Both the position numbers and the translations under genes were made by a program. Shown piece by piece: positions 25,029 to 39,732 of a stretch of DNA of 64,000 nt (positions are counted from its first letter, which is position 1; the number at the start of each line of letters is the position of its first letter). Under the pieces are notes generated by a model, which was not told the origin of the DNA, searched no databases, and was given only the letters and a program-made list of their open reading frames with translations. Where the stretch lies: positions 4,858,501 to 4,922,500 of the forward strand of contig NZ_CP086106.1 in the NCBI RefSeq assembly GCF_016765655.2, given 5' to 3'. The DNA comes from Skermanella mucosa. GTDB lineage: Bacteria; Pseudomonadota; Alphaproteobacteria; Azospirillales; Azospirillaceae.

Positions 25029-25063
25029 TAGCCTGTCCTCCGGCTTGCAAAGAGGAGGGCGGC

Positions 25064-25510: not shown

Positions 25511-25532
25511 GCTTTGGCGGCACTGGCCCGAT

Positions 25533-25574
25533 CATGATACCAGTTCCATGATACCAGTTCCATGATACCAGTTC
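25533..25574. promoter_or_regulatory. Three perfect tandem 14-bp repeats, candidate GntR operator
   Basis: CATGATACCAGTTC is repeated three times without a mismatch (25533-25546, 25547-25560, 25561-25574), ending 29 bp before the regulator start. On the other strand each unit reads GAACTGGTATCATG and contains TGGTAT, the half-site of many FCD-type GntR operators. A near copy (ACTGGTATGAT) lies before the RuBisCO-like operon at 33152. Likely the regulator's own site; binding is inferred. Confidence 0.6.
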
Positions 25575-25603
25575 GAGCACCTGTTTCCGCCAGAGCCGCT
25601 GCC

Positions 25604-26314
25604 ATGACCTCGATCGACCCGATCCCCCGGCGCAAGCTTTACCAGGAGGTCCTGGACCGCCTGCTGGCCCGGATCTCCAGCGGCGAGTACGCGGTGGGCG
25701 ACCAGCTGCCCAGCGAGCGCCAGCTGATGGAGATGTACAAGGTCGGCCGCCCCGCGATCCGGGAGGCGATGCAGACCCTGTCCCACATGGGGCTGGTGTC
25801 GATCACCCACGGCGAGCGGGCGCGGGTCACGCCGATCACCGCGGACCGGGTGATCGAGCAGGTCGGCGAGACCGCCAAGCACTTCATCGCCGGAGCTCCC
25901 GAGAACCTGGAGCACCTGAAGGAGGCCCGCGTCTTCTTCGAGGTCGGCATGGTCCGGCTGGCCGCCGAGCGGGCGACGGAGGAGGATATCGGCCGGCTGG
26001 CCCGCCGGCTGGAGGACCACCGGGAGGCGCTGGCGGACCTGCCCAACTTCCTGCCCTGCGACATGGCCTTCCACCGCGAGATCGCCACCATCTCCGGCAA
26101 CCCGATCTATGTGGCGGTCAGCCAGTCCATGTTCGCGTGGCTGGCGGTCTATCACGTGAAGCTGCTGCGGGCACCGGGCGCCGAGCTGATCACCATCGAG
26201 GAGCATGAGAGGATCTTCGACGCCGTCGCCGACCGCGATCCGGACGAGGCGGCGGCGGCCATGTCCGACCACCTGAAGCGGGCGAGCCAGCTGTACCGGC
26301 AATTCGAAAGTTGA
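25604..26314 (+). CDS. GntR family transcriptional regulator, FCD subfamily
   Basis: A 236-residue repressor-type protein. The N-terminal winged helix-turn-helix includes YAVGDQLPSERQLMEMYKVGRPAIREAMQTL (about residues 28-60). The C-terminal FCD all-helical domain has the metal/effector-binding acidic and histidine positions (LPCDMAFHREI and the later MSDHLKRA). This architecture resembles NanR and other sugar-acid sensors. ATG 25604 was chosen as nearest to the domain; 25562 lies inside the tandem repeats. Neighbouring ApsD-like and downstream apionate genes make an apiose-derived sugar acid a reasonable effector, by inference. Confidence 0.88.
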   Translation: MTSIDPIPRRKLYQEVLDRLLARISSGEYAVGDQLPSERQLMEMYKVGRPAIREAMQTLSHMGLVSITHGERARVTPITADRVIEQVGETAKHFIAGAPENLEHLKEARVFFEVGMVRLAAERATEEDIGRLARRLEDHREALADLPNFLPCDMAFHREIATISGNPIYVAVSQSMFAWLAVYHVKLLRAPGAELITIEEHERIFDAVADRDPDEAAAAMSDHLKRASQLYRQFES

Positions 26315-26356
26315 CCGGCGGTCCGGGAGTTGACCGGCGGTTCGGGAGTTGACCGG
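26309..26356. repeat. 19-bp tandem repeat, 2.5 copies
   Basis: AGTTGACCGGCGGTYCGGG occurs at 26309-26327 and 26328-26346, with a partial copy at 26347-26356. The first copy contains the regulator's stop codon (26312-26314). It may be replication slippage at the gene end, or a binding site ahead of the dehydrogenase gene. Confidence 0.75.
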
Positions 26357-26440
26357 AAGACCATGGGGCCGCCACGATAACCCGGAGGTCCGGAGCCCTG
26401 GAGACCTGACGCGCCGGATCCGCATCGAGGAGAGACCCGC

Positions 26441-27514
26441 ATGACTTCCCCGGCTTCTTCGGTCTATGCGCCGCGCCCCGGCAAGCTTCGCGGCACCCTG
26501 GTCGGCTGCGGCTTCTTCGCCGAGAACCACCTGAACGCCTGGACCTTGATGCGGGACACCCCGCTGGAGGGCGTCGAGCTGGTCGCGGTGTGCGACAAGG
26601 ACGTGGGCAAGGCGGAAGCCGCCGCCCGGCGCTTCGGCGTGCCGAACGTCTATGCCGACGCGGAGGCGATGCTGGCGGAGCAGAAGCCCGACTTCGTGGA
26701 CATCGCGACCACCCTGCCCTCCCACCGGGCGCTGGTGGAGCTGGCGGCCCGGCACGGCGTGCCCGCGATCTGCCAGAAGCCCTTCGCCGCCAGCCTGGAG
26801 GACGCGGAGGCGATGGTGCGGGCCTGCGCCGAGGCCGGCGTGCAGCTGATGGTCCACGAGAATTTCCGCTGGCAGCACCCGCTGCTGGCGGTGAAGCAGG
26901 CGCTGGACGAGGGCTGGGCGGGCCGGCCGTTCTTCGGCCGGGTCCAGTTCCGCCACGGCTTCGACATCATCGCCAATCAGCCCTACCTGGCGGAGGACGA
27001 GCGCTACATCATCATGGATGTGGGGCTTCACCTGCTGGACGTGGCCCGCTTCCTGTTCGGCGAGGCCGGGCGGCTCTATTGCCGGACCGCGCGGATCGAC
27101 CCGCGCGTGCGGGGGGAGGACACCGCGACCATGCTGGTGGACTTCCACGGCGGCGTCACGGGGGTGGTCGACCTGTCCACCGCGACCCGGACCGAGCCGG
27201 AGCCCTTCCCCGAATGCCTGGTGCGGATCGAGGGGACCGACGGCACGATCGATCTGGAGCAGGGCTATCGGCTGGTGCTGAGCCGGCCGGGCCACCGGGA
27301 GGTGCGGCCGGTCGATGCGGAGCTTCTGCCCTGGGCCGCCCGGCCGTGGCACGTGGTGCAGGACAGCGTTCTGGCGATCCAGCGCCACTGGGTCGATTGC
27401 CTGCGCGAGGGCCGCGAGCCGGACACCTCGGGGGCGGACAACCTGCGCACCCTGGAGCTGACCTTCGGCGCCTACCGGTCGGCGGAGACCGGCGAGGCGG
27501 TGGCGTTCGGCTGA
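26441..27514 (+). CDS. apsD: Gfo/Idh/MocA family oxidoreductase, probable D-apiose dehydrogenase
   Basis: A 357-residue NAD(P)-dependent oxidoreductase. The Rossmann motif is GTLVGCGFFAENHLNAW, the family's EKP motif appears as QKPFA (Lys retained), and the C-terminal sheet domain carries the catalytic DVGLHLLDVARFLFG His region. The GCGFFAENHL start and HENFRWQHPLLA stretch remind me of ApsD, which oxidises D-apiose to apionolactone. GAGGAGA lies before the ATG. The regulator upstream and the ApnO/OiaK/RuBisCO-like genes 6 kb downstream support this role. No apionolactonase gene is present, so the sugar specificity remains inferred. Confidence 0.7.
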   Translation: MTSPASSVYAPRPGKLRGTLVGCGFFAENHLNAWTLMRDTPLEGVELVAVCDKDVGKAEAAARRFGVPNVYADAEAMLAEQKPDFVDIATTLPSHRALVELAARHGVPAICQKPFAASLEDAEAMVRACAEAGVQLMVHENFRWQHPLLAVKQALDEGWAGRPFFGRVQFRHGFDIIANQPYLAEDERYIIMDVGLHLLDVARFLFGEAGRLYCRTARIDPRVRGEDTATMLVDFHGGVTGVVDLSTATRTEPEPFPECLVRIEGTDGTIDLEQGYRLVLSRPGHREVRPVDAELLPWAARPWHVVQDSVLAIQRHWVDCLREGREPDTSGADNLRTLELTFGAYRSAETGEAVAFG

Positions 27515-27743
27515 CACCCCCCTCCCCCGTGGGAGAATGTCAGCGGATGTCATGATTCCCGGATCAAGCCCGCGACTGCCCGGCACGATGACTGGTTGAA
27601 TCATTGGAGAAATGTAGGTCGGGCAGAGCGAAGCGGCACCCGACGGCAACGCGTCGGCTTTGTCGGGTGCCGCGTCGCTCTACCTAGCCTACAGGGCTGA
27701 CACCCCTCTCCCGTGCCAAAATGTCAGCCGATGTCATCATTCC
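27509..27743. repeat. Palindromic element flanked by about 50-bp direct repeats
   Basis: An imperfect inverted repeat spans 27614-27692, with arms including GCGGCACCCGAC and GTCGGGTGCCGC, AGAGCGA/TCGCTCT and GTAGG/CCTAC. It is bracketed by imperfect direct repeats at 27509-27560 (containing the dehydrogenase stop codon) and 27695-27743, which share GGCTGACACCCC, AATGTCAGC and GATGTCAT blocks. It resembles a mobile extragenic palindrome. Nothing else is coded here. Confidence 0.75.
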
Positions 27744-27847
27744 CAGCGCGGTCGTGATGACGTGGGCGCCGGAAAGGCCGCAAAGGTCATCTCGACTTTG
27801 GCCATCCTAAATGGGACTACGAGCGGCTTCGGATTGGTTTTGATAGG

Positions 27848-29212
27848 TCAGGGGGCATAAGCGGCGGCCTGGACGAGCCTGACGTAGACGGTGCGAGGAA
27901 TTTGGACGGTTTCGCCGGGATCCAGGGCTGTGACGAAATTCAGGTCGGTCCACAGGGCGATGCGTACGGCAGCCAGGGCGTCGGCGAAGGTCGGGGCGGT
28001 CTTGGGGTACCAGGCCGCCCGGCGCGGGGTCAGGTCGAGTTGGCCGGCGAAGGCCTGGACATGGAGCGCGACCAGCGAGTACAGGCCGAACAGCACCGGG
28101 GTGGTGCGGAACACCGCCTTGTCGGCGTGCTGGCGCTGGGTCTCGACGCCGAGGTGGGCGCGCGCCTCTTCATAGGTGAGTTCCATCAGCCAGCGCCTGG
28201 AGAACCAGCCGAGGATGACCAGCGGGTCGGCCGTCAAGTCGGTGCACGCCAACGCGTCGGGGTCGCGCTTGGACCCGGGATAGCGCACCAGGATCCAGCG
28301 GACCGCGACCGGCGGCTCCCCCGGGTGGTGCCACAGCGCGGTGCCGGAGATGAACTCCGCCTCCCGCGCGTGGCGACGCCCGGTGCGGACCAGCAGGGCG
28401 AAGCGCTGCCAGGGCTCGCCCGCGTCGTGCCGCCGCTTGGCCAGCTTGGTTTGGGCCTTGCCCTTGGTGGCGGGCCGACCGCCCCGGCCGGGCGGGCGCG
28501 GGGCCGGGAAGTCGAACAGCCGGGCGTCCAGGCGGAGCCGGGTCACCACGGTCATTGCGCGGCCCAACTCGCGCAGCAGGCCGACCGAGGCGAACTCGCC
28601 GTCCATCACCGCGACCATGGCGCGCCCCGGCAGCCAGCGCCGCACCAGGCGCAGCAGGCTGAGCGCCCACGCCGTGACCGGCCGGTATCGCCGGCCCTCG
28701 GCCTGGCAGAAGGCTTGGCTCGGCGCCAGCGCGCTGAGCATCGGCAGCGCCCAGACCTTGCGGGCGAACGGCACCTCGGCCAGCAGCATGGCCGAGACCC
28801 AGCGCAGGCCGCGGCTGGTGACCTTGCGCCCGCGCGAGGAGCGCACCGGGTCGTAGTAGTGTGCCGCCGGCCGGACCCGGGGACCGCGCCGGCGCTCCAG
28901 GGTGTGGTCGAGCCCGACCACCACCGGGCCGAGCGGGGCGAACACGCGCACCAGCGCCCGGGTGAGCCGCCGGGCCAGCGCCAGCCCGGACCACACGTCG
29001 CGGCTGAGCACCCGGTGGAAGGTGGCGAAATCGGCCCGTCCGGCCAGGCCGAGCGCGCGTAGCGCGCCGGCCACGGTGCGCGGGCCAAGCGCCAGCAGGG
29101 CGCCGACCGCCAGCGCGGCGGCCTGGGGCCGGCAGGTCGGCGAGAACACAGCGAGCGCCGGGGCGAGCCAGCGGCAGAACGCCTCGGGCAGCGGCGGGTC
29201 AGGGCGGTCCAT
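27848..29212 (-). CDS. DDE transposase of the IS4/IS701 type
   Basis: A 454-residue transposase with an RNase-H-like core: the first acidic region GPVVVGLDHTLERRRG, the second VAVMDGEFASVGLLREL, and the C-terminal Y-E pair in RRWLMELTYEEARAHLGVETQRQ, matching the YREK-like signature of IS4-superfamily enzymes. ATG 29212 has GGAGGGG just upstream. The frame is intact. Exact family assignment needs a database search; a 5-bp duplication is less usual for IS701. Confidence 0.88.
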   Translation of the reverse strand: MDRPDPPLPEAFCRWLAPALAVFSPTCRPQAAALAVGALLALGPRTVAGALRALGLAGRADFATFHRVLSRDVWSGLALARRLTRALVRVFAPLGPVVVGLDHTLERRRGPRVRPAAHYYDPVRSSRGRKVTSRGLRWVSAMLLAEVPFARKVWALPMLSALAPSQAFCQAEGRRYRPVTAWALSLLRLVRRWLPGRAMVAVMDGEFASVGLLRELGRAMTVVTRLRLDARLFDFPAPRPPGRGGRPATKGKAQTKLAKRRHDAGEPWQRFALLVRTGRRHAREAEFISGTALWHHPGEPPVAVRWILVRYPGSKRDPDALACTDLTADPLVILGWFSRRWLMELTYEEARAHLGVETQRQHADKAVFRTTPVLFGLYSLVALHVQAFAGQLDLTPRRAAWYPKTAPTFADALAAVRIALWTDLNFVTALDPGETVQIPRTVYVRLVQAAAYAP

Positions 29213-29270
29213 GGTCCCCTCCGGGCGGTTGGAGTGTTGGACCCAACAGTCCCGCCCCGCGGAGATCGCC

Positions 29271-29552
29271 ATGGCCGCCAAGACCGACCCCGTGCTCCAG
29301 CGCATCCACGCCCACCCCTGGCCGCAAGGTGGCGTCCGCGCCCGGCGCGCCGGTCACGGCTACTCGCTGGTCAGCACCCGCACCGGCGCGCCGGTCGCCC
29401 GCCTGTGCCCGACCGGCGAGGACGACGAGGTCGAGGTCCTCTGGTGGCGACGCGACGCCTGGGGACCCGCCGGTCCCTTCGGCGCCATCATGCCCCTTGA
29501 TGACGCCCTCGACTTCATCGCCGAGGAACCCTTCTTCTGGATCAGGGCCTGA
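29271..29552 (+). CDS. IS passenger gene, 93-residue hypothetical protein
   Basis: Divergent from the transposase by 58 bp and wholly within the inverted repeats, so it moves with the element. The protein is small and soluble, with VRARRAGHGYSLVSTRTGAP, a CPTGEDDEVEVLWWRRDAWGPAG core and DDALDFIAEEPFFWI at the end. Similar short proteins accompany related elements, but I know no function; target choice or transposition control is possible. ATG 29271 has GGAG about 7 bp upstream. Confidence 0.65.
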   Translation: MAAKTDPVLQRIHAHPWPQGGVRARRAGHGYSLVSTRTGAPVARLCPTGEDDEVEVLWWRRDAWGPAGPFGAIMPLDDALDFIAEEPFFWIRA

Positions 29553-29589
29553 TCAAAGTCCCATTTAGGATGGCCAAAGTCGAGGTCAT

Positions 29590-29934
29590 CTTCGGTCACT
29601 ACGGCGGGGCCGGATCGGGGCCGGCGCCTCTTTCGGGTGTCATCATGGAGCCGGCCGGAACAGCGGAGGCCCGGCAAGGCCGAAGGGATCACGGATGGAC
29701 ACGGATGACAAAGGATGGGCACGGATCACGGCGAGTCGCTGCTTCCGCGATCAGGTGCCGGGTCACCATGACCGCTTGGAACCGGCCTGAAAGTAACTGG
29801 AAGTCACTATTCTGACCTTCGGGCGGGCGGTCAATCCGTCCAAGGCATACGTCTGCATTCTTCAGGTTGTATTGACTCCTATTTCATTCTCGCTTTCGGT
29901 AAAATACCCCGATAATCAACTCGGGAGTGATCCG
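29590..29934. other. Intergenic region with ATCCGTG-type short repeats
   Basis: No gene is visible. Around 29687-29731 the sequence is built of short repeats of GGATGGACACGGAT and its variants, a low-complexity motif seen between genes in many proteobacteria. The remaining part is moderately AT-rich and should hold the promoter of the YHYH gene. Confidence 0.5.
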
Positions 29935-30069
29935 ATGCGCCTGAAGCTTGTCGCCGTACTGTCCGCCCTCGCCCTCCTCCTGCCGTCGATCGCCTTCGCC
30001 CATTCCGGCGGGCTGGACCGCAAGGGCTGCCACCATGACCGGAAGAATGGCACTTATCACTGCCATTGA
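29935..30069 (+). CDS. Small secreted YHYH-domain protein
   Basis: A 44-residue precursor: a clear signal peptide (MRLKLVAVLSALALLLPSIAFA, cleavage before HSG), then a 22-residue mature peptide HSGGLDRKGCHHDRKNGTYHCH. The His/Cys-dense end matches the YHYH motif found at the C-terminus of larger secreted proteins; here it stands alone. The six histidines and two cysteines suggest metal binding in the periplasm. CGGGAG lies 9 bp before the ATG. Confidence 0.75.
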   Translation: MRLKLVAVLSALALLLPSIAFAHSGGLDRKGCHHDRKNGTYHCH

Positions 30070-30260
30070 CGCCCCGGGGTCATCGCGGGTCATCACGGGT
30101 CATCGTGATGACCGCCGGAGGCGGGGTGGTTGGGATCTATTCTCATGTCAAAGATCCGGCAAGGGCCGCGCCCTGCCCTTTGCCTTAAGGCTATCGGATC
30201 GTAGCACAAGCGGGCCAAGGACATCAATCCTATGATGCGCGCCGGGCGCTCGCCGAAGGC

Positions 30261-30431
30261 ATGGCGGTTTGCAGTGGTGTGCGAAAGTGCCGCTGCTGTG
30301 GGAAGCAGTCCGCAACTCACTGGTATGTATCGTTTGAGGTAGACTCTGCGATGCAGCGGGAGGCAACTTGGCAGGGTATGACGGTCTTGCCGTACAGCAC
30401 GACGAGAAGGCAGTGGCGCGCGCGAGAATGA
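30261..30431 (+). CDS. Possible 56-residue Cys-rich protein, partner of the HTH gene
   Basis: The frame ATG 30261 to TGA 30431 encodes MAVCSGVRKCRCCGKQSATH followed by WYVSFEVDSAM and a basic end (TTRRQWRARE). Its stop overlaps the next ATG as ATGA, the usual join of toxin-antitoxin genes. The cluster C-x5-C-x-C-C could bind zinc. The frame stays open upstream to 30189, so this may be the tail of a longer, truncated protein. No family recognised and no good ribosome-binding site. Confidence 0.35.
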   Translation: MAVCSGVRKCRCCGKQSATHWYVSFEVDSAMQREATWQGMTVLPYSTTRRQWRARE

Positions 30432-30790
30432 GCGAAAGCGATATTGTGCGTTATCGGCCGGGCCATGATCCGAAACCCCTGGGCCAATCGGACTGGAAGC
30501 GTATCGACGCCATGAGCGATGACGAGGCCGAGGCAAACGCCTTATCCGACCCCGACAATCCGCCCTTGACCGGCGAACAGCTGGCCCACGCCTTCAGGCC
30601 AAAGGATATTCGTGCGATCCGCGAGACGCTGAACCTGAGTCAGGCCGGATTTGCCAAACGCTTCGGGCTGAACCTGGGAACTCTACAGGATTGGGAGCAG
30701 GGCCGCCGGGAGCCGGACCAGGTGGAGTGGCTGTACTTGAAAGTGGTTGCACACGCGCCGGAAGTTGTCGAAGCGGCGCTTGAGGATTGA
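30428..30790 (+). CDS. Helix-turn-helix protein, antitoxin-like (BrnA/HigA type)
   Basis: A 120-residue protein. The N-terminal half (MSESDIVRYRP...SDWKRIDAMSDDEAEANALSDPD) resembles BrnA-type antitoxins, while the C-terminal half is a Cro/C1 helix-turn-helix (FRPKDIRAIRETLNLSQAGFAKRFGLNLGTLQDWEQG), as in HigA/MqsA antitoxins. ATG 30428 fits this family; an upstream TTG at 30368 with GGGAGG is an alternative. A BrnT toxin should precede it but is absent; only the small Cys-rich frame at 30261 is there. Probably an orphan antitoxin or a regulator. Confidence 0.75.
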   Translation: MSESDIVRYRPGHDPKPLGQSDWKRIDAMSDDEAEANALSDPDNPPLTGEQLAHAFRPKDIRAIRETLNLSQAGFAKRFGLNLGTLQDWEQGRREPDQVEWLYLKVVAHAPEVVEAALED

Positions 30791-30867
30791 TCAGCGGTGT
30801 CCGCCAAGTGGCCGGCACTGGAGGGGAATAGCGGCCGAAACGGCTAATTGAATCTGGAGGACCTTGG

Positions 30868-31185
30868 GTGAGTGACTATCCCATACGCGAGATCGTGGAT
30901 GCGGAACGGCGTGGTTCCGAATTGCTGATGACCGAACCGCGCGCCAAATCCGCAAAATTCGATGCCTCCAACGGGCGGATTATCGTGGAGTTGATCAATG
31001 GTCGCAGTTTCGCCTTTCCGCCGGGACTGGTCCAAGGACTTCAGGACGCTACCGCCGAGCAGTTGGCCGAAGTGGAGGTGCTGGGAAGGGGCATCGGTTT
31101 GCATTGGGAAAGCCTTGATGCCGATCTCAGCGTACCCGGCCTACTGGCGGGGTTGTTCGGCACCAGGGCTGTCGCTTTAAAGTAG
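30868..31185 (+). CDS. DUF2442 domain protein
   Basis: A 105-residue protein with the DUF2442 pattern: KFDASNGRIIVELINGRSFAFPPGLVQGL, then ATAEQLAEVEVLGRGIGLHWESLDADLSVPGLLAGLFG. DUF2442 proteins are usually partners of DUF4160 proteins in toxin-antitoxin-like pairs; that partner is not seen. GTG 30868 has GGAGG 9 bp upstream. It follows the HTH gene by 77 bp, in a patch of small accessory genes. Confidence 0.8.
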   Translation: MSDYPIREIVDAERRGSELLMTEPRAKSAKFDASNGRIIVELINGRSFAFPPGLVQGLQDATAEQLAEVEVLGRGIGLHWESLDADLSVPGLLAGLFGTRAVALK

Positions 31186-31410
31186 CACATCCCCAAAGCT
31201 TAGGCCATGACTGCTTCAACGGCGTCGGCGGCAACGCAGATGAACAGTAGGAAATGCGTTCGTGCTCCGAAACAGGCGGCGCTCCGCCTGAGCGGTGGCC
31301 CGCTTCCCGGCTCTGCCCTCCCCCTGGGGTGAACCGCGTCCGTTCCGGGTGATCGCCGGCCCGTGCGCGCCCGCCCCCTCGTCGTGTCGCTCCTTCGGAG
31401 ACGCGGCCCC

Positions 31411-31791
31411 ATGACCATGCCCGATCAACACCCGTTCGACCATCTCCCGCACCTGTCCGACCACCCGCCGCCCGACTCGCCGGTCCACCGCGGCCGGTAC
31501 CGGCTGATGCTTCCCAACGGCGAGGAGTCGCCGGCCGAAGTCGCGCGCCATCTCGGCGAGCTGATCGCCTTCCTGTCCGTCCCGTTCGAGGGCGACGAGC
31601 GGCCCAGGATCGAGGGGGACGAGTTGCAGGGGTTCCATATCCTGCTCTGCACGATCCAGGGCTGCCTCTCCGACCTGGAAGGGCAGATCCGGGACCTGAT
31701 CGCGGCCAACGCCGCCGATTATGCGCGCGGCCGGGCCGATGGACTGCGCGAGAACCGGGGCGGCGCCTCGGCCGGCGGCCGGCCGGCGTGA
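31411..31791 (+). CDS. Hypothetical protein, 126 residues
   Basis: Soluble and acidic. The N-terminal 20 residues are His/Pro-rich (PDQHPFDHLPHLSDHPPPDS), followed by a predicted helical region (EVARHLGELIAFLSVPFEGD, LLCTIQGCLSDLEGQIRDLI). No family recognised. ATG 31411 is a choice; 31417 and 31363 are also possible. Its last bases overlap the next gene (GTGA), so the two are co-translated. Confidence 0.5.
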   Translation: MTMPDQHPFDHLPHLSDHPPPDSPVHRGRYRLMLPNGEESPAEVARHLGELIAFLSVPFEGDERPRIEGDELQGFHILLCTIQGCLSDLEGQIRDLIAANAADYARGRADGLRENRGGASAGGRPA

Positions 31792-32072
31792 GCGGAGGCT
31801 TGGCCGTGCGCACGCTCGGCAAGCTGCTGGTGATCTGGGGCGTGCTGCTGCCGCTGATCACCCTGCCCTCCACGGCGGCCGGACTGTACGGGATCATCCC
31901 GCTGCTGAAGATTTCGCTGTGGCACATGGACGCGCGGATCGGGCCGGTGACCGTCGCCTATGAGACCATCGTCGTCGGGGCGCTGGTCCTGGTCGGTGTC
32001 GGGCTGTCGTTCTGCGTTCTGCCGCCCCGGGAGCGCAGTCGGACGCGGCGCCGCGGACAGAATAAAGTTTAA
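31788..32072 (+). CDS. Small two-helix membrane protein
   Basis: A 94-residue protein with two hydrophobic helices (about residues 12-40 and 60-82) and a strongly basic C-terminal tail (RERSRTRRRGQNK) that should face the cytoplasm. GTG start overlapping the stop of the preceding gene by 4 bp. No family recognised. Confidence 0.55.
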   Translation: MSGGLAVRTLGKLLVIWGVLLPLITLPSTAAGLYGIIPLLKISLWHMDARIGPVTVAYETIVVGALVLVGVGLSFCVLPPRERSRTRRRGQNKV

Positions 32073-32208
32073 TTAAATGCAGTAAACCCGTCTCTTGATA
32101 GGAAAAATATGCCGCGCGCCTTGTCCTTCGTGGAATGATTTGCCCACCGATGCCTGTCAATCCGCGCGGAATGACGGAGTTTCACCTGTTTTCGGTTCGG
32201 ACTTTACT

Positions 32209-32223: not shown

Positions 32224-32265
32224 TTCAATCCGCATCATGGAACCGGATGCGCTGGATTGGTCGGT

Positions 32266-33126
32266 ATGCTGTCTCTGAATACGAACGCCACGGTGACACT
32301 TCTTCTGAACAACCGTAGCCGGCTCGACGCGGATTCCAAGGCCAGCCAGAAGGCAATCGCGACCGGCCTGGGCGTGGCCGACGTCTATGACGACGGGGCG
32401 ACCAAGGCGGTCGCGATGCGCATCCAGTCCCAGATCGGCGCCACCGCCGCCGTGTCGGAGCGGCTTTCCATGGCGCAGGGCCTCGTCACCGTCGCCCGCG
32501 TGGCGAGCGAACGGCTGCTGGACCAGATGGGGCACCTGAAGGAGGTGATTCTCAAGGCCGCCGACACGGCGACCAGCGAGACCGAGCGGGCGAGCTATGA
32601 CCAGGAATACCGGCAGATCCTGGGCGATGCCAAGGCGATCCTGGCCGATGCGTCCTACAGGGACGTGAACATCCTGATCGACCTGACGCTCGACAACGGG
32701 ACGTCGATCCCGTTCAACCCGACGCCGGGAGTCGTCAATTCGCAGGACGTGATCGTCTCGACCGACGGCGACACCACCCGGATACAGGCATTCCGGCTGG
32801 ACATGAACTGGAGCAGGCTGAACCAGGAGAGCATCGGGTCGCCGGAAGCGGCGCAACAGGCCCTGGGCGTCTGGGAGGAGCAGTGGACAGTGTTCGCATC
32901 GGCCGCGAACAAGCTGGGGGCCACCCAGAAATCCCTGGAGAACCGGCAAGCCTCCCTGACGAACCAGTCCAACGCCCATGCCGCCGGCCTGGGGGCGATG
33001 GTCGATGCCGACCTTGCGAAGGAGAGCGCGCGGCAGCAGGCGACCGACCTGAAGATCCAGCTGTCCAACCAAGCGCTGTCGATCGCGAACCAGGCTCCCC
33101 AGATCCTGCTCCGCCTGTTCCAGTGA
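32266..33126 (+). CDS. Flagellin
   Basis: A 286-residue filament protein with only the conserved D0/D1 ends and a short middle. The N-terminus (MLSLNTNATVTLLLNNRSRL...AVAMRIQSQIGA) and C-terminus (LGAMVDADLAKESARQQ... ALSIANQAPQILLRLF) form the coiled helices of the filament core; such short flagellins resemble lateral flagellins of Azospirillum relatives. The N-terminus lacks the usual NTN-x-A-A-LN spacing in part, so it may be a minor or specialised subunit. No other flagellar gene is in the window. It has its own sigma-54 promoter. Confidence 0.88.
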   Translation: MLSLNTNATVTLLLNNRSRLDADSKASQKAIATGLGVADVYDDGATKAVAMRIQSQIGATAAVSERLSMAQGLVTVARVASERLLDQMGHLKEVILKAADTATSETERASYDQEYRQILGDAKAILADASYRDVNILIDLTLDNGTSIPFNPTPGVVNSQDVIVSTDGDTTRIQAFRLDMNWSRLNQESIGSPEAAQQALGVWEEQWTVFASAANKLGATQKSLENRQASLTNQSNAHAAGLGAMVDADLAKESARQQATDLKIQLSNQALSIANQAPQILLRLFQ

Positions 33127-33148
33127 CAAGGGCCTTGCGGTGTTCCGG

Positions 33149-33168
33149 CATACTGGTATGATGAGTAT
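33149..33168. promoter_or_regulatory. Candidate GntR operator before the RuBisCO-like operon
   Basis: CATACTGGTATG (33149-33160) is nearly palindromic, and ACTGGTATGAT (33152-33162) matches the 11-bp core of the triple repeat at 25533-25574 (ACTGGTATCAT on the minus strand) at 10 of 11 positions. An outer ATACT/AGTAT pair extends the symmetry. It lies 42-61 bp before the RuBisCO-like protein start, in promoter position. Confidence 0.5.
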
Positions 33169-33209
33169 ATAAGAAGCACGAACACGGACCTGGGGAGGTC
33201 GGACGCCTC

Positions 33210-34418
33210 ATGGCAATGCCAGCGCAGCGCATCACCGCGACATATCGGATAGAGACGGCCTACCCGCTCGACGAGGCGGTCGAGACCATGGCGGGAGAGC
33301 AGTCCACCGGCACCTTCGTCCGGCTTCCGGGCGAGACCGACGAGATGCGGGCGCTGTACGGCGCACATGTGGAGCGGCTGACCGAGCTGGAGACGGTCGG
33401 GGCGCCGTCGCTTCCGGGGGCGGGCGTTCCCAAGGGGCTTGAGGGCAAGCCGGTCTGGCGGCGGGCGGAGGTGGTGCTGTCCTGGTCGCTGGACAACTTC
33501 GGCGTCTCGCTGCCCAACCTGGTCGCGACGGTGGCGGGCAACCTGTTCGAGCTGCGGCCCTTCAGCGGGCTGCGGCTGCTGGACATCGGACTGCCGGAGG
33601 CGTTCGCGGAGAAGTATCCGGGGCCGAAGTTCGGGGTCGCGGGGACCCGGCGGCTGGCCGGGGTGGAGCGGCGCCCGCTGATCGGGACGATCGTCAAGCC
33701 GAGCGTCGGCATGGGGCCGGAGGCGACGGCCGAGCTGGTCCGCGTGCTGTGCGACGCCGGGATCGACTTCATCAAGGACGACGAGCTCCAGGCCGACGGG
33801 CCGCACTGCCCGTTCGAGGCGCGGGCGCGCGCGGTAATGCGGGTGATCGACGCCTGCGCGGAGCGGACCGGCCGGAAGGTGATGTTCGCCTTCAACATCA
33901 CCGGCGACCTGGACGAGATGCGGCGGCGGCACGACCTGGTGGTGGAGCTGGGCGGCACCTGCGTGATGGCGAGCCTCAATTCGGTCGGGGTGGTCGGCAT
34001 GGTCGAGCTGGGGCGGTTCAGCCAGCTTCCGATCCACGCCCACCGCAACGGCTGGGGCTACCTGTCGCGGGCGCCGGAGCTGGGCTGGTCCTATGTCGCC
34101 TGGCAGAAGATCTGGCGGCTGGCCGGCGCCGACCACATGCATGTGAACGGGCTCCAGAACAAGTTCTGCGAACCCGACGAGAGCGTGGTCGCCTCGGCCC
34201 GGGCGTGCCTGACGCCGATGTTCGAGGGCAAGCCCTGCACGGTGATGCCGGTGTTCTCGTCCGGCCAGTCGGCCAAGCAGGCGGCGGGGACCTATGCGGC
34301 GCTGGGGTCGGCCGACCTGATCTTCGCGGCGGGCGGCGGCATCATGGGGCACCCGGACGGGCCGGCGGCGGGCGTCGGCGCCCTGCGCGACGCCTGGGAA
34401 GCGGCGCTGGCGTCATGA
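33210..34418 (+). CDS. RuBisCO-like protein, probable 3-oxo-isoapionate-4-phosphate decarboxylase or transcarboxylase/hydrolase (OiaX/OiaT type)
   Basis: A 402-residue member of the RuBisCO large-subunit superfamily. Counterparts of the catalytic residues are present: Lys163 (GTIVKPSVG, Lys175 in RuBisCO), the carbamylated Lys189 with Asp191 and Glu192 (FIKDDELQ), His278-Arg279 (PIHAHRNGWG), and Lys318 (NGLQNKF, loop-6 Lys334). RuBisCO-like proteins next to a DUF1537 kinase and ApnO act on 3-oxo-isoapionate 4-phosphate, giving L-erythrulose 1-phosphate or, in the transcarboxylase type, a split product. I cannot separate OiaX from OiaT by eye. It heads the operon, with GGGGAGG about 12 bp before the ATG. 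Confidence 0.85.
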   Translation: MAMPAQRITATYRIETAYPLDEAVETMAGEQSTGTFVRLPGETDEMRALYGAHVERLTELETVGAPSLPGAGVPKGLEGKPVWRRAEVVLSWSLDNFGVSLPNLVATVAGNLFELRPFSGLRLLDIGLPEAFAEKYPGPKFGVAGTRRLAGVERRPLIGTIVKPSVGMGPEATAELVRVLCDAGIDFIKDDELQADGPHCPFEARARAVMRVIDACAERTGRKVMFAFNITGDLDEMRRRHDLVVELGGTCVMASLNSVGVVGMVELGRFSQLPIHAHRNGWGYLSRAPELGWSYVAWQKIWRLAGADHMHVNGLQNKFCEPDESVVASARACLTPMFEGKPCTVMPVFSSGQSAKQAAGTYAALGSADLIFAAGGGIMGHPDGPAAGVGALRDAWEAALAS

Positions 34419-35824
34419 TGACGGGCGCCGGCGGGGTCCGGGGGCTGCCCGGGGGGCTGTTGCTGAGTTTCTACGGCGACGACTATACCGGGTCGTCGGC
34501 GGTGATGGAGGTGATGAGCTTCGCCGGGCTGCCGACGGTGCTGTTCCTGGGCGTGCCCACGCCGGAGCGGCTGGCGCGGTTCGAGGGGTACCGGGGGATC
34601 GGCTTCGCCGGGGTGGCGCGGTCGCAGGGCTTGGACTGGATGGACCGGCACCTGCCGGCGGTGTTCCGGACGCTGGCGGGGCTGCGGGCGCCGGTGGCGC
34701 ACTACAAGGTGTGCTCGACCTTCGACTCCTCGCCGCATGTCGGCTCGATCGGGCGGGCGGCGGAGCTGGCGGTGCCGCTGCTGGGGGGCGCGTGGCACCC
34801 GCTGGTGGTCGGTGCGCCGGAGATCGCGCGGTACCAAGCGTTCGGCAACCTGTTCGCGGCGGCGGCAGACGGCGAGCGCTACCGGCTCGACCGGCATCCG
34901 GGCATGTCGCGGCATCCCGTGACACCCATGGCCGAGGCGGACGTGAGGGTTCATCTGGGCCGGCAGACCAGCCTGCCGGTCGGGCTGGTGGACTGCGTTT
35001 CCATGAAGCGGGGCGAGGCCGACGCCGCCCTGGAGAGGGAGACCGCGCGGGGTGCGGCCATCGTGGCGCTGGACGTGATCGACGCCGAGACCCTGGCGGA
35101 GGCCGGGCGGCTGGTTTGGGAACGCGGCGGCGGGCCGAACGGGGGGCGGGTCTTCGCGATCGGCTCGCAGGGGCTGGAATACGCGCTGGTGGCGTGGTGG
35201 CGGAAGGCCGGGCTGATCCCGGAGGCGGGCGAGGTTTCGTTGGCGCGGGCCGGGGCGGCGGAGCGGATCGCCTGCGTTTCCGGCTCCTGCTCGGCGGTGA
35301 CGGCGGGGCAGATCGCGGCGGCGCTGGAGGCGGGGTTCGAGGGCATACGGGTCGAGGCGGCGCTGGCGGTGGACGGACCCGCGTGGGAACGCGAGCTGGA
35401 CCGGGCGGCGGAGGCGGCGCTTGCGGCGCTCGGCGCCGGGCGGGACCCGCTGGTTTTCTCGGCGCTGGGGCCGGACGACCCGGCCGTGGCGGCGATGCGG
35501 ACTGCGGTGGAGGCCAGCGGCGTTCCCATGGAGGCCGTGAACGACAGGATCGGCGCAGGGCTGGGGCGCCTGCTGGACCGGGTGATGCGGACGGCGGGGC
35601 TGAAGCGCGGGGTGATCGCCGGGGGCGACACCTCCGGCCATGCCGCCATGACGCTGGGGGTCTATGCGCTGACGGCGCTGGCCCCGGTGGCGCCGGGGGC
35701 TCCGCTGTGCCGCGCCCATTCCGACGACCCGGCCCATGCCGGGCTGGAGATCGCCCTGAAGGGCGGGCAAATGGGCCGGCCCGACTATTTCCGAGCCGCG
35801 AAGCGCGGTTCGGCCGAGGAATAG
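34415..35824 (+). CDS. oiaK: Four-carbon acid sugar kinase family (DUF1537), probable 3-oxo-isoapionate kinase
   Basis: A 469-residue two-domain kinase. The N-terminal substrate domain opens with LLSFYGDDYTGSSAVMEVM, equivalent to the DDxTGA motif of DUF1537 proteins, and contains KVCSTFDSSPHVGSIG; the C-terminal nucleotide domain has GVIAGGDTSGHAAMTLGV. It would phosphorylate 3-oxo-isoapionate with ATP to make the substrate of the RuBisCO-like protein. Its start overlaps that gene's stop by 4 bp (ATGA). Related DUF1537 kinases act on tetronates, but this neighbourhood favours the apionate role. Confidence 0.8.
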   Translation: MMTGAGGVRGLPGGLLLSFYGDDYTGSSAVMEVMSFAGLPTVLFLGVPTPERLARFEGYRGIGFAGVARSQGLDWMDRHLPAVFRTLAGLRAPVAHYKVCSTFDSSPHVGSIGRAAELAVPLLGGAWHPLVVGAPEIARYQAFGNLFAAAADGERYRLDRHPGMSRHPVTPMAEADVRVHLGRQTSLPVGLVDCVSMKRGEADAALERETARGAAIVALDVIDAETLAEAGRLVWERGGGPNGGRVFAIGSQGLEYALVAWWRKAGLIPEAGEVSLARAGAAERIACVSGSCSAVTAGQIAAALEAGFEGIRVEAALAVDGPAWERELDRAAEAALAALGAGRDPLVFSALGPDDPAVAAMRTAVEASGVPMEAVNDRIGAGLGRLLDRVMRTAGLKRGVIAGGDTSGHAAMTLGVYALTALAPVAPGAPLCRAHSDDPAHAGLEIALKGGQMGRPDYFRAAKRGSAEE

Positions 35825-35828
35825 GGCC

Positions 35829-36015
35829 GTGCCCGATCAGGTCGATCCGGCCGGGGCAGCCGGGCCGATGCGTTGGGCCTCGGCCCAACCTGCGATCGAC
35901 GGCCCGCATCACCTCTGCCCTGCATCAAGCCGTAGGTTGGGCCGTGGCCCAACGCATCGCGGCGAATGGAGCGGCAGGCTGTGTGGAGCGGTCCAATCTG
36001 GCCGGAAACCGCTCG
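35829..36015. repeat. Interspersed palindromic repeat, copy 2, inside the apionate operon
   Basis: This matches the repeat at 12112-12237 (on its minus strand) at both ends: CCCGATCAGGTCGATCC, GGGGCAGCCGG, GCGTTGGGCC, GTGGCCCAACGC and GAGCGGCAGG/GTGTGGA blocks. It holds roughly 65 bp of additional DNA at about 35878-35945, bounded by copies of the GGTTGGGCC/GGCCCAACC arm. It separates the kinase from apnO and could form a stable hairpin in the mRNA. Confidence 0.8.
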
Positions 36016-36054
36016 AAGGACGATGGGATAGGAACGATGGGAGGGAATGAAGGC

Positions 36055-36891
36055 ATGACCAGGATCGCGCTGCTGGGCGCCGGCGGCAAGATGGGGGTCC
36101 GGCTGGCCACGAACCTGCACGGTTCGGAGTTCCAGGTGGACCATGTGGAGATTTCCGACGAGGGGCGGCAGCGGCTGAAGGACGCGATCGGCGCCGCCTG
36201 CGTGGACCAGGACCGGGCGCTGGCGGAGGCCGACGTGGTGCTGATGGCGGTTCCCGATCGGCTGATCGGCAAGATCGCCCACGGGTTCATTTCCAAGGTG
36301 AGGCCGGGAACGGCCATCATCATGCTGGACGCGGCGGCTCCCCATGCCGGCGAGCTGCCGAAGCGGGACGACGTGACGTACTTCGTGACGCATCCGTGCC
36401 ATCCGCCGATCTTCAACGACGAGGTCGAGCCGGCGGCGAAGAACGACTTCTTCGGCGGCATCGCGGCCAAGCAGCATATCGTCTGCGCCCTGATGCAGGG
36501 GCCGGAGGAGCATTACGCCCTGTGCGAGCGGGTGGCCCGCATGATCTACAAGCCGGTGATGCGGTCGCACAGGGTCACCGTGGAACAGCTGGCGATCCTG
36601 GAGCCGGCCCTGTCGGAGACGGTCGGCGCCACCCTGTCGCTCGCCATGCGCGACGCGGTGGACGAGGCGGAGCGCCGGGGCGTCCCGCGCGAGGCCGCGG
36701 TGGACTTCATGCTGGGGCACCTGAACATCGAGCTGGCGATCGCCTTCGGGATCTTTCCCCAGGGGCGCTTCTCGGACGGCGCGCTCCACGCGATCGAGCA
36801 GGCCAAGCCGGTGATCTTCAAGGAGGGCTGGCTGGATCGGGTGTTCGACAAGGACAGCGTGCTCCAGTCGGTCAAGGACATCTGCAAGTAA
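36055..36891 (+). CDS. apnO: D-apionate oxidoisomerase (ApnO-like)
   Basis: A 278-residue NAD-dependent enzyme with an N-terminal Rossmann domain (RIALLGAGGKMGVRLATNL, then VVLMAVPDRLIGKIA) and a helical C-terminal domain like that of 6-phosphogluconate dehydrogenase/ketol-acid reductoisomerase. The THPCHPPIFND stretch (residues about 113-123) and HRVTVEQLAILEPALSET are typical of the ApnO group, which converts D-apionate to 3-oxo-isoapionate. GGGAGG lies about 9-10 bp before ATG 36055. The position next to kinase and RuBisCO-like genes gives the order ApnO, OiaK, OiaX/T. Confidence 0.8.
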   Translation: MTRIALLGAGGKMGVRLATNLHGSEFQVDHVEISDEGRQRLKDAIGAACVDQDRALAEADVVLMAVPDRLIGKIAHGFISKVRPGTAIIMLDAAAPHAGELPKRDDVTYFVTHPCHPPIFNDEVEPAAKNDFFGGIAAKQHIVCALMQGPEEHYALCERVARMIYKPVMRSHRVTVEQLAILEPALSETVGATLSLAMRDAVDEAERRGVPREAAVDFMLGHLNIELAIAFGIFPQGRFSDGALHAIEQAKPVIFKEGWLDRVFDKDSVLQSVKDICK

Positions 36892-36927
36892 AACCAAGAA
36901 GAACGCAACAAAGGGGGGAAATAAGCC

Positions 36928-37899
36928 ATGAAAGGCGCGATATCGCTGTTCTCCGGCCTGGCGCTGCTGGCGGCGCTGGGCGGTCAGGCCCTGGCCGCAG
37001 ATTACGTCATCAAGGCGGGGCACGGCACCCAGACCACCCATCCGACCCACTTGGCGCTGGTCAAGTTCGCCGAGCTGGCGGACCGGAAGACCGGCGGCGC
37101 GGTCAAGGTGGAGATCTACCCGGACCGCCAGCTCGGCGAGGAGCGGGAGATGGTCGAGGGGCTTCAGCTCGGCTCGGTCGACATGGCGGTGGTCTCCACC
37201 GGGCCGCTGCTGGCCTTCGTGCCGCAGATCGGCGTGATCGACCTGCCCTTCGTCTTCAAGGATTCGGCGCACGCCTACAAGGTGCTGGACGGCGAGGTCG
37301 GCCAGTCCTTGCTGAAGAAGATGGAGCCCAAGGGGATCGTCGGCCTCGCCTGGTGGGAGAACGGCTGGCGGCACCTGACCACCAAGAAGCCGGTCGCCCA
37401 GCCCGCCGACATGAAGGGCATGAAGCTGCGCACCATGCAGAACCCGGTGCATATCGCGGCCTTCAAGGAGATCGGCGCGTCGCCCATCCCGATGGCGTGG
37501 GGAGAGGTCTTCACCAGCCTGGGCCAGGGCGTGATCGACGCCCAGGAGAACCCGATCACGATCATCTATTCCAACTCGCTGTGGGAGGTCCAGAAATACG
37601 TGACCCTGACCGGCCACGTCTACGGGCCGCACGCCGTCATGGTCAGCGAGGCCAAGTGGAGCACCCTGCCCGACGACGTCCAGGCCAAGCTGCGAGAGGC
37701 GGTGACCGAGGCGACCGCGTACCAGCGCGAGCAGTCCCACCGGCTGGAGGCCGAGCAGCTGGTCAAGCTCCGGGAGAAGGGCATGGTGATCGAGACGGTG
37801 GACACGGCGCCGTTCCGCACCGCCACGGCCGGGATCGCCGAGAGCTCGAAGAACATCGATCCCGCGATGCTGGCGGCGATCCGCTCCGCCGGGGAGTGA
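36928..37899 (+). CDS. TRAP transporter solute-binding protein (DctP family)
   Basis: A 323-residue periplasmic protein with a signal peptide cleaved near residue 24 (GGQALAA-DYV). DctP features include YPDRQLGEEREMVEGLQLGSVDM and the carboxylate-clamp arginine Arg168 in MKGMKLRTMQNP, followed by GASPIPMAWGEVFTSLGQGVIDAQENP. It should capture a carboxylate sugar acid; the operon makes D-apionate or apiose derivatives likely. AGGGGGG lies before the ATG. The two membrane subunits follow directly. Confidence 0.93.
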   Translation: MKGAISLFSGLALLAALGGQALAADYVIKAGHGTQTTHPTHLALVKFAELADRKTGGAVKVEIYPDRQLGEEREMVEGLQLGSVDMAVVSTGPLLAFVPQIGVIDLPFVFKDSAHAYKVLDGEVGQSLLKKMEPKGIVGLAWWENGWRHLTTKKPVAQPADMKGMKLRTMQNPVHIAAFKEIGASPIPMAWGEVFTSLGQGVIDAQENPITIIYSNSLWEVQKYVTLTGHVYGPHAVMVSEAKWSTLPDDVQAKLREAVTEATAYQREQSHRLEAEQLVKLREKGMVIETVDTAPFRTATAGIAESSKNIDPAMLAAIRSAGE

Positions 37900-37935
37900 C
37901 CGGCTTTCCGGTGCCGTGAAGGAAGGGGGGCGCGG

Positions 37936-38442
37936 ATGCTCGTCATGAAGCTGTGGTACGGGATCGAGCAGGCGGTGAAGGCCCTGCTGATCGGGCTGGT
38001 GACCGTGATGGTCGCGACCAGCCTGGCCCAGGTGTTCTGGCGCTATGTCTTCAACGACCCGCTGACCTGGTCGGAGGAGCTGGCCCGCTACCTGTTCGTC
38101 TGGATCGCGTACCTGTCGGCCTGGCTGACCTGGCGGCACCGCGCCCACATCGCGCTGGACGCCGTCACCTACCTGCGCTCGCCGGTGCTGGAGCGGTGGT
38201 CGGCGCGGCTGGTGGAGGTGCTGGTGCTGGGCTTTTGCGCCTATACCTTCTACGCCAATTTCCGTCTGCTGGGGCTGACGGTAGACCAGCCGTCGGCCGT
38301 GCTGGAGATCCCGATGGTCTGGGTCTACGCCGCCTACAACGTCATGACCTTCATGATCTGCGGCGACATCCTGGTGAACTGGCTGATGGGCGCCCTGGCC
38401 GCCCGGTCGGTCCGCGTCGCGGCCCCGGGCCGGCCGGCCTGA
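37936..38442 (+). CDS. TRAP transporter small permease (DctQ family)
   Basis: A 168-residue membrane protein with four predicted helices and the DctQ pattern QVFWRYVFNDPLTWSEELARYLFVWIAYLSAWLTWRHRAHIALD. It pairs with the large DctM subunit 15 bp downstream. Gene order dctP-dctQ-dctM is complete and canonical. Confidence 0.93.
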   Translation: MLVMKLWYGIEQAVKALLIGLVTVMVATSLAQVFWRYVFNDPLTWSEELARYLFVWIAYLSAWLTWRHRAHIALDAVTYLRSPVLERWSARLVEVLVLGFCAYTFYANFRLLGLTVDQPSAVLEIPMVWVYAAYNVMTFMICGDILVNWLMGALAARSVRVAAPGRPA

Positions 38443-38457
38443 GGAGGCATTTCGTCC

Positions 38458-39732
38458 ATGGCGACCATCCTGCTGCTGAGCTTCTTCGCGCTTCTGCTGG
38501 TCAACGTGCCGGTCTCGTTCAGCCTTGCCATCGCGTCGACGGCGGCGATCCTGTTCGGCGGGATGCCGCCGGGCGTGATCGTTCAGAAGATGACGGCGGC
38601 GATCGACAGCTTCGTGCTGCTGGCGGTGCCGTTCTTCCTGTTGTCGGGCCACCTGATGGCGCGCAGCGGCATCGCCCGGGACATCATCGAGTTCGCGGAC
38701 TCGGTGGTGGGGTGGCTGCGCGGCGGGCTGGCCCAGGCCAACATCGCCGCCGGAACGCTGATGGGCGGCATGACCGGGTCGGCGGTGGCGGAAGCGGCCT
38801 CGACCGGCGGCGCGCTGATCCCGCCGATGCTGGAGCGGGGCTACGACCGGCCCTTCACCGCGGCGGTGACCGCCAGCGCCTCCACCCTGTCGGTGGTGAT
38901 CCCGCCGTCGATCCCGATGATCATCTTCGGCGTGGTGACCGGCGTGTCGGTGTCGGACCTGTTCATCGGCGGGATCGTGCCGGGCATCCTGATGGCGCTG
39001 GCCCTGATGGTGACCTCGTGGGTGCTGGCGGTCCGGCGCGGCTACCAGAAGGGGCCGATGCCGTCGCTGGGCAGCATCGCCAAGGCGACGCGGGCCAGCG
39101 TGTGGGGGCTGCTGATGCCGCTGGTGATCATCGGCAGCATCCGCTACGGCATCGCGACGCCGACCGAGGCCTCGGTGGTGGCGGTGGTCTACGGCCTGGC
39201 GGTGGGCATGCTTGTCTACCGCACGATCGGGGTGAGGGACCTGCCGAAGATCGTGCTGGAGTCGATGGTGACGACCGGCATGGTGATGCTGATGATCGCC
39301 ACCGCCTCGCTCTACGGCCTGATCGTGACGCGGGAGCAGCTGCCGCAGGCGGCGGCGGAGCTGATCCTGGGGCTGACGACCGATCCCTACATGGTGCTGA
39401 TCCTGTTCCTGGGGGTCTATCTGCTGGCCGGCATGCTGCTGGACCTGGGCGCCAACATCATCATCCTGGTGCCGGTGCTGTGGCCGGTGACCCAGAAGCT
39501 GGGGATCGACCCGGTGCAGTTCGGCATCGTGACGGTGATCGGCCTGGCGATCGGGCTGGTGACCCCGCCGGTGGGGGCGAGCCTGTTCGTCACCTGCGGC
39601 ATCGCGAAGGCCAACCTGATCGAAGGCAGCCGCGCGACGGCACCCTTCATCCTGGCGCTGATCGCGGTGGTGGTGCTGATCATCTTCGTGCCGGGGATCG
39701 CGACCTGGCTGCCCTACAGCGCGAAGGGCTGA
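38458..39732 (+). CDS. TRAP transporter large permease (DctM family)
   Basis: A 424-residue polytopic protein of about 11-12 helices. Recognisable DctM blocks are the NVPVSFSLAIAS start, FFLLSGHLMARSGIA, the conserved TASASTLSVVIPPSIPMIIFG hairpin, and the second PPVGASLFVTCGIA hairpin near residue 370. It carries substrate with sodium across the inner membrane. Last gene of the operon; no hairpin-plus-T terminator was found after it. Confidence 0.94.
   Translation: MATILLLSFFALLLVNVPVSFSLAIASTAAILFGGMPPGVIVQKMTAAIDSFVLLAVPFFLLSGHLMARSGIARDIIEFADSVVGWLRGGLAQANIAAGTLMGGMTGSAVAEAASTGGALIPPMLERGYDRPFTAAVTASASTLSVVIPPSIPMIIFGVVTGVSVSDLFIGGIVPGILMALALMVTSWVLAVRRGYQKGPMPSLGSIAKATRASVWGLLMPLVIIGSIRYGIATPTEASVVAVVYGLAVGMLVYRTIGVRDLPKIVLESMVTTGMVMLMIATASLYGLIVTREQLPQAAAELILGLTTDPYMVLILFLGVYLLAGMLLDLGANIIILVPVLWPVTQKLGIDPVQFGIVTVIGLAIGLVTPPVGASLFVTCGIAKANLIEGSRATAPFILALIAVVVLIIFVPGIATWLPYSAKG

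Follow-up and report, generated by a model that had tools for sequence, protein, structure and literature searches.

A split gene cluster of Skermanella mucosa predicted to encode D-apionate catabolism, with putative TRAP uptake and a probable OiaT-type RuBisCO-like protein

We analysed a 64,000-nucleotide stretch of Skermanella mucosa DNA (contig NZ_CP086106.1, positions 4,858,501 to 4,922,500; hereafter the window), in which the genes of a putative D-apiose/D-apionate catabolic cluster lie in two halves between 25.5 and 39.7 kb. We estimate a probability of roughly 75% that the two halves form a single D-apiose/D-apionate catabolic regulon under a NanR-type regulator, with uptake by a tripartite ATP-independent periplasmic (TRAP) transporter and with a RuBisCO-like protein (RLP) of the OiaT type; we assign them to one regulon because of homology, gene neighbourhoods in other genomes and an operator-like motif found at both halves. 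That the D-apionate pathway is encoded here at all is highly probable from the sequence. The substrates, reactions, transporter cargo and regulator binding named below are all predicted. A preliminary description of this DNA had placed a regulator and an ApsD-like dehydrogenase apart from an RLP-kinase-ApnO-TRAP operon, and all of these gene types are present as open reading frames of the named families; its proposed route by way of 3-oxo-isoapionate 4-phosphate is likewise supported by homology, neighbourhoods and the shared motif.

All cluster genes are on the plus strand. The upstream half consists of the predicted cluster regulator, a GntR/FCD protein of the NanR subfamily (25604..26314; Pfam FCD and GntR, NCBIfam NanR), and an ApsD-like D-apiose dehydrogenase of the Gfo/Idh/MocA type (26441..27514). 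After 5.7 kb of other DNA, the downstream half begins with the RLP gene (33210..34418; Pfam RuBisCO_large), followed by a four-carbon acid sugar kinase resembling OiaK, the 3-oxo-isoapionate kinase (34418..35824; its start, 34415 or 34418, overlaps the stop codon of the RLP gene), an ApnO-like D-apionate oxidoisomerase of the PGDH_C family (36055..36891), and the TRAP substrate-binding protein DctP (36928..37899), small permease DctQ (37936..38442) and large permease DctM (38458..39732), each recognised by the Pfam model of its name. We placed the end of the cluster at DctM because the next gene 3' of it encodes a GGDEF-EAL protein (39923-42214).

The dehydrogenase is nearest, among solved Gfo/Idh/MocA proteins, to an Agrobacterium radiobacter oxidoreductase, PDB 5uhw (410 bits; next match 92 bits), which we take to be ApsD itself, and its structural model (pLDDT 89) matches 5uhw with 53% identity and a root-mean-square deviation of 1.5. 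A. radiobacter K84 is among the organisms of the published apiose work (PMC6302742). The ApnO-like protein matches Pfam PGDH_C (PF16896) with 214 bits and PDB 5t57 with 333 bits; it is 60% identical to the corresponding protein of a Rhizobium oiaX cluster, 77% identical to its Microvirga counterpart, and 58-77% identical to those of four clusters with ApnL and ApsD homologues. A search of NCBIfam with this protein matched no ApnO model. The regulator scores 311 bits on the NCBIfam NanR model (cut-off 260) and is 53% identical to the NanR adjoining ApnL in Microvirga ossetica. The best match of the kinase is the NCBIfam OiaK model (NF042436), at 555 bits and below the cut-off of 700. We do not consider this shortfall telling, because the kinases of the Rhizobium oiaX cluster (473 bits) and of Microvirga (575 bits) also miss the OiaK cut-off; a Paraburkholderia kinase exceeds it (822 bits). 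Other assignments were rejected: the dehydrogenase scores only 96 bits as the inositol dehydrogenase IolG (cut-off 355), the kinase 158 bits as a 3-oxo-tetronate kinase (cut-off 350), and the RLP 160 and 121 bits as the methionine-salvage enolase MtnW (cut-offs 409 and 513.6). The D-apionate reading thus held against the tetronate, myo-inositol and methionine-salvage alternatives, all of which lie far below model cut-offs.

The two halves share a rare motif. Ahead of the regulator gene, ATGATACCAGTT is repeated three times in tandem, once every 14 bp (25534..25572, plus strand), and the sole ATSATACCAGT in the window outside this leader lies 5' of the RLP operon (33152..33162, minus strand). 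These four sites compare with none in 100 shuffles, and both places are predicted NanR-type operators; the NanR-type protein would bind the predicted ACTGGTATGATGA site. The regulator probably starts at 25604 and not at the ATG at 25562, because the latter falls within the operator-like repeat. Note that the motif was first read off the NanR and RLP leaders of the window, such that the window counts are partly circular and other loci serve as the test. We collected 121 RLP loci, of which 80 are the best tblastn matches listed; the set is not random, gene presence was scored by identity thresholds that we set, and some loci end at contig ends. Among the 70 loci with ApnO (1.39 Mb), TGGTATSAT occurs at 55 sites, and 45 of these, in 33 loci, lie no more than 400 bp upstream of a cluster gene; loci that come from the same genus or are nearly identical do not count as independent. 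For approximately 200 shuffled motifs, such upstream sites numbered 0.57 on average and 6 at most. The 51 loci without ApnO (0.94 Mb) contain no TGGTATSAT site.

The motif also recurs at corresponding places in relatives. In two of four same-genus genomes (G001 and G002) there is one site each before the regulator, the ATP-binding cassette (ABC) genes and the RLP gene, and in a third (G004) there are two before the RLP gene. Genome-wide counts of ACTGGTATSATGA, with those inside the cluster in brackets, are 3 (2) for the window genome, 4 (3) for G001, 3 (3) for G002 and 2 (2) for G004; the fourth genome, G003, has 2, both away from its RLP gene, where a one-letter variant of the motif lies 44 bp upstream of the RLP gene. 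In the OiaX group of the RLP tree described below, the motif stands 36-42 bp before ApnO in 7/10 loci, but not in L182, L183 and L184. Two further ideas were dropped. A wider NanR regulon in the window genome would have depended on the third 13-mer match, which overlies the start of a glycosyltransferase-like frame and was taken as chance; and the palindrome GGTATACC or TGGTA-N-TACCA as operator was found upstream of RLP in 0/69 ApnO loci and 0/51 others.

We next consider the chemistry of the RLP. Its nearest named NCBIfam model is OiaX (NF042437), on which it scores 429 bits against a cut-off of 700 and a score of 785 for the OiaX of Rhizobium sp. N6212, and it is far below the cut-offs of RuBisCO models too. 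We built a tree of 123 rows by maximum likelihood (quick method, SH-aLRT support, no bootstrap), in which four rows in addition to the outgroup sit on long terminal branches and are unsurely placed. The window RLP belongs to a branch of 101 rows (SH-aLRT 97). This branch is apart from the OiaX group of 10 rows (SH-aLRT 100), in which OiaX labels were seen for part of the rows only, some records being without annotation, and from a third branch that includes PDB 3nwr (SH-aLRT 98). Hence, the window RLP is not in the branch of the OiaX-labelled proteins. In RuBisCO numbering, the equivalents of E60, N123, K175, K201, D203, E204, H294, R295, H327 and K334 are invariant in the 101 rows, and that of H325 is present in 100/101. 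The window RLP has all eleven of the RuBisCO residues for C-C cleavage that we examined. Positions 60, 123, 325 and 327 are D, G, Q and Q in the OiaX group; the third branch also has E60, N123, H325 and H327, such that these four residues are not unique to the window branch. In RuBisCO, a beta-keto acid of six carbons is hydrated and then cleaved; 3-oxo-isoapionate 4-phosphate is a beta-keto acid of similar kind. Because the RuBisCO residues are kept and the proposed substrate resembles this keto acid, we favour a transcarboxylase/hydrolase, and it is likely that the RLP has the chemistry of OiaT, the 3-oxo-isoapionate-4-phosphate transcarboxylase/hydrolase, whose products are 3-phosphoglycerate and glycolate. 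We infer that the retained RuBisCO residues define OiaT; the assignment is an argument from branch membership.

A reported example of this activity bears on the branch. According to PMC6302742, a Xanthobacter RLP is a transcarboxylase/hydrolase, if the activities follow the order in which the organisms are given. We sampled 119 genomes of the Xanthobacteraceae, the family of Xanthobacter, and found 13 RLP places that are at least 49% identical to the window RLP; the rest are at most 36% identical, and none of the sampled genomes has an RLP at 37-48%, the range of most OiaX-labelled proteins. Eleven of the 13 are in the tree (the G124 and G082 places were not placed), six in the window branch and five in the third branch. 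ApnO is nearby for five of the former and none of the latter. All five sampled Xanthobacteraceae loci with ApnO therefore fall in the branch of the window. In the S. mucosa genome a second RLP match (C1:5539578, 32% identity) has RuBisCO-like residues at the examined columns and was set aside, on these columns, as a presumed RuBisCO. The host belongs to the same family as Azospirillum: G024, a genome of that family, encodes an RLP identical to the one of Azospirillum oryzae COC8.

The best-surviving alternative keeps the same D-apionate pathway with an RLP that is an OiaX-like decarboxylase, the resulting tetrulose phosphate being handled by isomerases encoded elsewhere. OiaX is indeed the nearest named model, and the genes next to the RLP do not separate the two: neither TIM nor DerI was found in any of the 101 window-branch loci, but 8/10 OiaX-clade loci also have no isomerases nearby, and we dropped isomerase absence as proof of OiaT for this reason. 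However, the RLP is only 43-49% identical to OiaX-labelled proteins, lies in a separate, supported branch, and differs from the OiaX branch in a set of 43 positions conserved differently between the two, including the equivalents of E60, N123, H325 and H327. We consider an OiaX-like decarboxylase unlikely. If the RLP is instead of the transcarboxylase/hydrolase type, the caution in the preliminary description about absent enzymes after the RLP step is probably moot.

The window genome lacks a block of genes that three relatives carry. At the junction between the regulator and the dehydrogenase (26315..26440), G001, G002 and G004 have 6.4-6.5 kb; by alignment, the block measures ~6.4 kb in the first two and 6.5 kb in G004, for which the aligned pieces are shorter. 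The block encodes an ApnL-like protein, a sugar-binding protein, a permease, an ATPase and a second permease. Its flanks correspond to window positions 23364-26318, including the regulator, and 26411-27792, with the dehydrogenase; the 92 bp between them (26319-26410) match neither side. The order NanR-ApnL-ABC-ApsD is kept in 3/4 same-genus genomes. We found no match to the D-apionolactonase ApnL, which a D-apiose cluster would be expected to include, in the whole window genome, and one in each of G001-G004 (4/4). The preliminary description had noted the lactonase as missing from the window, and it is missing from the genome as well. Because these genes are part of the apiose set that recurs in other genomes, the absence of the block is read as a deletion in the window lineage.

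We also compared sequence divergence in the remaining genes. Across the window and three same-genus genomes, the ratio of non-synonymous to synonymous rates (dN/dS) of cluster genes is 0.02-0.35, indicating purifying selection, and the window copies have no stops; a single stop occurs in the part of G004 that aligns to DctQ. Changes private to the window are mostly synonymous (synonymous to non-synonymous, 12:2 for ApsD, 11:1 for DctP and 10:1 for DctM); the 6:4 of the RLP gene is too few to judge.

The halves are separated by DNA that includes an insertion sequence (IS). The IS701-family element, which is not part of the pathway, occupies 27793..29582 on the opposite (minus) strand; it is 1790 bp long, with a transposase at 27848-29305 (NCBIfam transpos_IS701_3) and a 9-bp target duplication. 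It is one of 12 full-length copies of ~100% identity in the genome, and the site is empty in G001 and G002, with a single copy of the 9 bp, suggesting recent activity. The rest of the intervening DNA holds a helix-turn-helix gene and a flagellin-like gene. Because DNA separates the halves in G001 and G002 too, there without the IS, the gap before the RLP operon is older than the element, which widened it recently. A palindromic interspersed repeat between kinase and ApnO (35826..36024; 199 bp) is likewise absent at this place in G001 and G002; it has 83 match rows in the S. mucosa genome, with several rows per copy. A different repeat-like stretch lies between RLP and kinase in G001 and G002.

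The missing block, the recent IS between the halves and the repeat between kinase and ApnO would fit a cluster that is a decaying remnant, non-working since the loss of ApnL and the ABC importer and further decayed by the insertions, and the deletion may be too young for substitution counts to show decay. Against this, the window genes have no stops, their private changes are mostly synonymous (with RLP only 6 to 4), and the TRAP genes and both operator places are intact; on balance, we judge a dead cluster to be improbable.

The genes of the cluster recur together elsewhere. Of the 101 loci in the window's RLP branch, 61 have ApnO, 44 NanR, 30 ApnL, 24 an ApsD-like gene, and 13 a DctP sharing 40% or more identity with the window protein. 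ApnO is present in 24/24 of the ApsD-like loci, 29/30 of the ApnL loci, 43/44 of the NanR loci and 13/13 of the DctP loci. We regard the gene set as more than chance because it recurs in Pseudomonadota and Acidobacteriota, has low dN/dS, and carries the same rare motif on both halves. Other RLP loci are built differently: eight in the 3nwr branch (L119, L120, L129, L196, L200-L203) have the kinase and a TRAP permease and no ApnO (0/8), and a second RLP locus of G004 (L115/L116, G004:C5:139037) has an RLP gene with one in-frame TAG beside kinase, GntR and TRAP genes.

The cargo of the TRAP transporter can be approached through DctP. Its best solved relatives by sequence are 4nq8, 4pdd, 4p9k and 4pdh, which we take to hold pantoate/erythronate-type ligands, and the structures nearest to its model (pLDDT 87) are 4nq8, 4pdh, 4p47, 4pdd, 4pak and 4p9k (36-42% identity); the title of the ninth structural match names sugar acid binding. 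Pantoate, like apionate, is an acid with a four-carbon chain branched at C3. As described in two papers, TRAP ligands include pantoate and D-erythronate, and conserved arginines hold the ligand carboxylate; R148 and R168 of DctP are invariant in 11 sequences. Because the binding protein resembles sugar-acid binders, D-apionate is the likeliest cargo, and we think it somewhat more probable that the transporter carries D-apionate than that it does not.

Several observations weigh against a single regulon with an OiaT-type RLP. Both the RLP and the kinase are below the NCBIfam cut-offs of OiaX and OiaK, and no characterised OiaT or ApnO sequence was among the proteins compared. Isomerase absence is weak evidence, with only 2/10 OiaX-clade loci showing isomerases nearby. 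By the TGGTATSAT pattern, 37/70 ApnO loci have no upstream motif, Ancylobacter loci among them. The ApnL homologue of G002 scores 547 bits, below the cut-off of 750, and G003 has RLP, kinase and ApnO without NanR, ApsD or TRAP genes near them, its ApnL-like gene being on another contig. In Shinella H4-D48 and Paracoccus, a TRAP transporter is the sole transporter directly beside ApsD and ApnL homologues, for which reason TRAP might carry apiose. Finally, 40/101 window-branch loci show no ApnO (some ended by contig ends), and 14/101 have LysR and short-chain dehydrogenase/reductase (SDR) genes instead (L045, L048, L128, L131 and L195 among them); the window-type RLP would therefore also serve other routes, the LysR/SDR loci representing a putative sister route. 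The 14 LysR/SDR loci, reported TRAP binding proteins with pantoate or erythronate, the nearest solved DctP relatives presumably among them, and a route for hamamelose that involves an RLP, cited in a paper for Ochrobactrum anthropi, would be compatible with an operon for another branched or short aldonic acid (for example, hamamelonate or a pantoate-like acid) beside an unrelated ApsD-like gene, but this is the least probable alternative, given that ApnO accompanies ApsD-like genes in every locus and ApnL in all but one, and that the motif, absent from loci without ApnO, links both halves.

The single-regulon reading can be set beside the closest known systems. Carter et al. in 2018 reportedly described a D-apiose catabolic pathway with OiaX. 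The OiaX cluster on a plasmid of Rhizobium sp. N6212 has NanR, RLP, kinase, PGDH_C and ApsD-like proteins homologous to those of the window (46-60% identity) and the same motif 40 bp before ApnO. Its annotated order is NanR, oiaX, kinase, TIM, RpiB, PGDH_C, ribose-type ABC genes and Gfo/Idh/MocA; RpiB passes the D-erythrulose-4-phosphate isomerase model, and where ApnL would stand there is a hypothetical protein that detects the ApnL-like gene of the same-genus genomes. The window cluster differs in having an RLP of another branch, in lacking ApnL, ABC importer and TIM/RpiB genes, in having TRAP genes instead, and in being split. On the Microvirga ossetica plasmid (NZ_CP016618), the RLP (74% identity), kinase (67%), ApnO (77%), ApsD (58%) and NanR (53%) all match those of the window. 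That cluster is contiguous, in the order ABC, Gfo/Idh/MocA, ApnL, NanR, RLP, kinase, PGDH_C; its ABC importer is of the ribose type, its ApnL scores 899 bits (cut-off 750), and no TRAP or isomerase gene is annotated in the stretch. Three Ancylobacter clusters (L034, L038, L039) have RLP-kinase-ApnO-DctPQM-NanR in one run, with DctP 71-74% identical to that of the window; they differ in having an ApnL homologue in the locus and no upstream motif by the pattern used. The OiaT-type apiose route reported for Xanthobacter autotrophicus (PMC6302742) may resemble that predicted here in its RLP branch, to judge from the 5/5 sampled Xanthobacteraceae ApnO loci, and in the RuBisCO-like residue set. Among the papers listed by literature searches, one, PMC11747546, deals with an apiose cluster.

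Two other features of the window were recorded. A flagellin-like gene (32260-33126) lies directly 5' of the RLP operon and is kept in G001 and G002 (dN/dS 0.07-0.09), with no plus-strand match in the G004 stretch. A match to the suhB/mmgR small RNA lies at 6557-6630 on the minus strand.

Taken together, the genes suggest the following route. D-apionate would enter mainly via the TRAP transporter; ApnO would convert it to 3-oxo-isoapionate by oxidation and hydroxymethyl migration; the kinase would form the 4-phosphate; and the RLP would hydrolyse this, in the manner of RuBisCO, to 3-phosphoglycerate and glycolate. In the three relatives, an ABC sugar importer and an ApnL-like lactonase would additionally feed D-apiose into the pathway, whereas the window genome would have lost that block with the ApsD-like gene still intact. 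The pathway is already known; the TRAP-fed layout without a lactonase and the predicted operator are new, no literature search having been aimed at the motif. We tentatively suggest, as a possibility somewhat short of an even chance, that the cluster serves D-apionate scavenging, with a dedicated TRAP importer, a RuBisCO-like C-C hydrolase and a NanR-type operator, predicted as ACTGGTATGATGAGT and recurring in apiose clusters of Alpha-, Beta- and Gammaproteobacteria and Acidobacteriota, and that the strain, having lost just the importer and lactonase, has shifted from apiose to become an apionate specialist. The cluster is a compact example of a sugar-acid RLP that retains most of the catalytic residues of RuBisCO and belongs to a branch left unnamed by the NCBIfam OiaX model. 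The motif may be a cheap marker for apiose regulons that tells them apart from similar-looking RLP-kinase clusters. This natural deletion of the importer and lactonase block would offer a clean comparison, with the relatives expected to grow on apiose and this strain expected to grow on apionate only.

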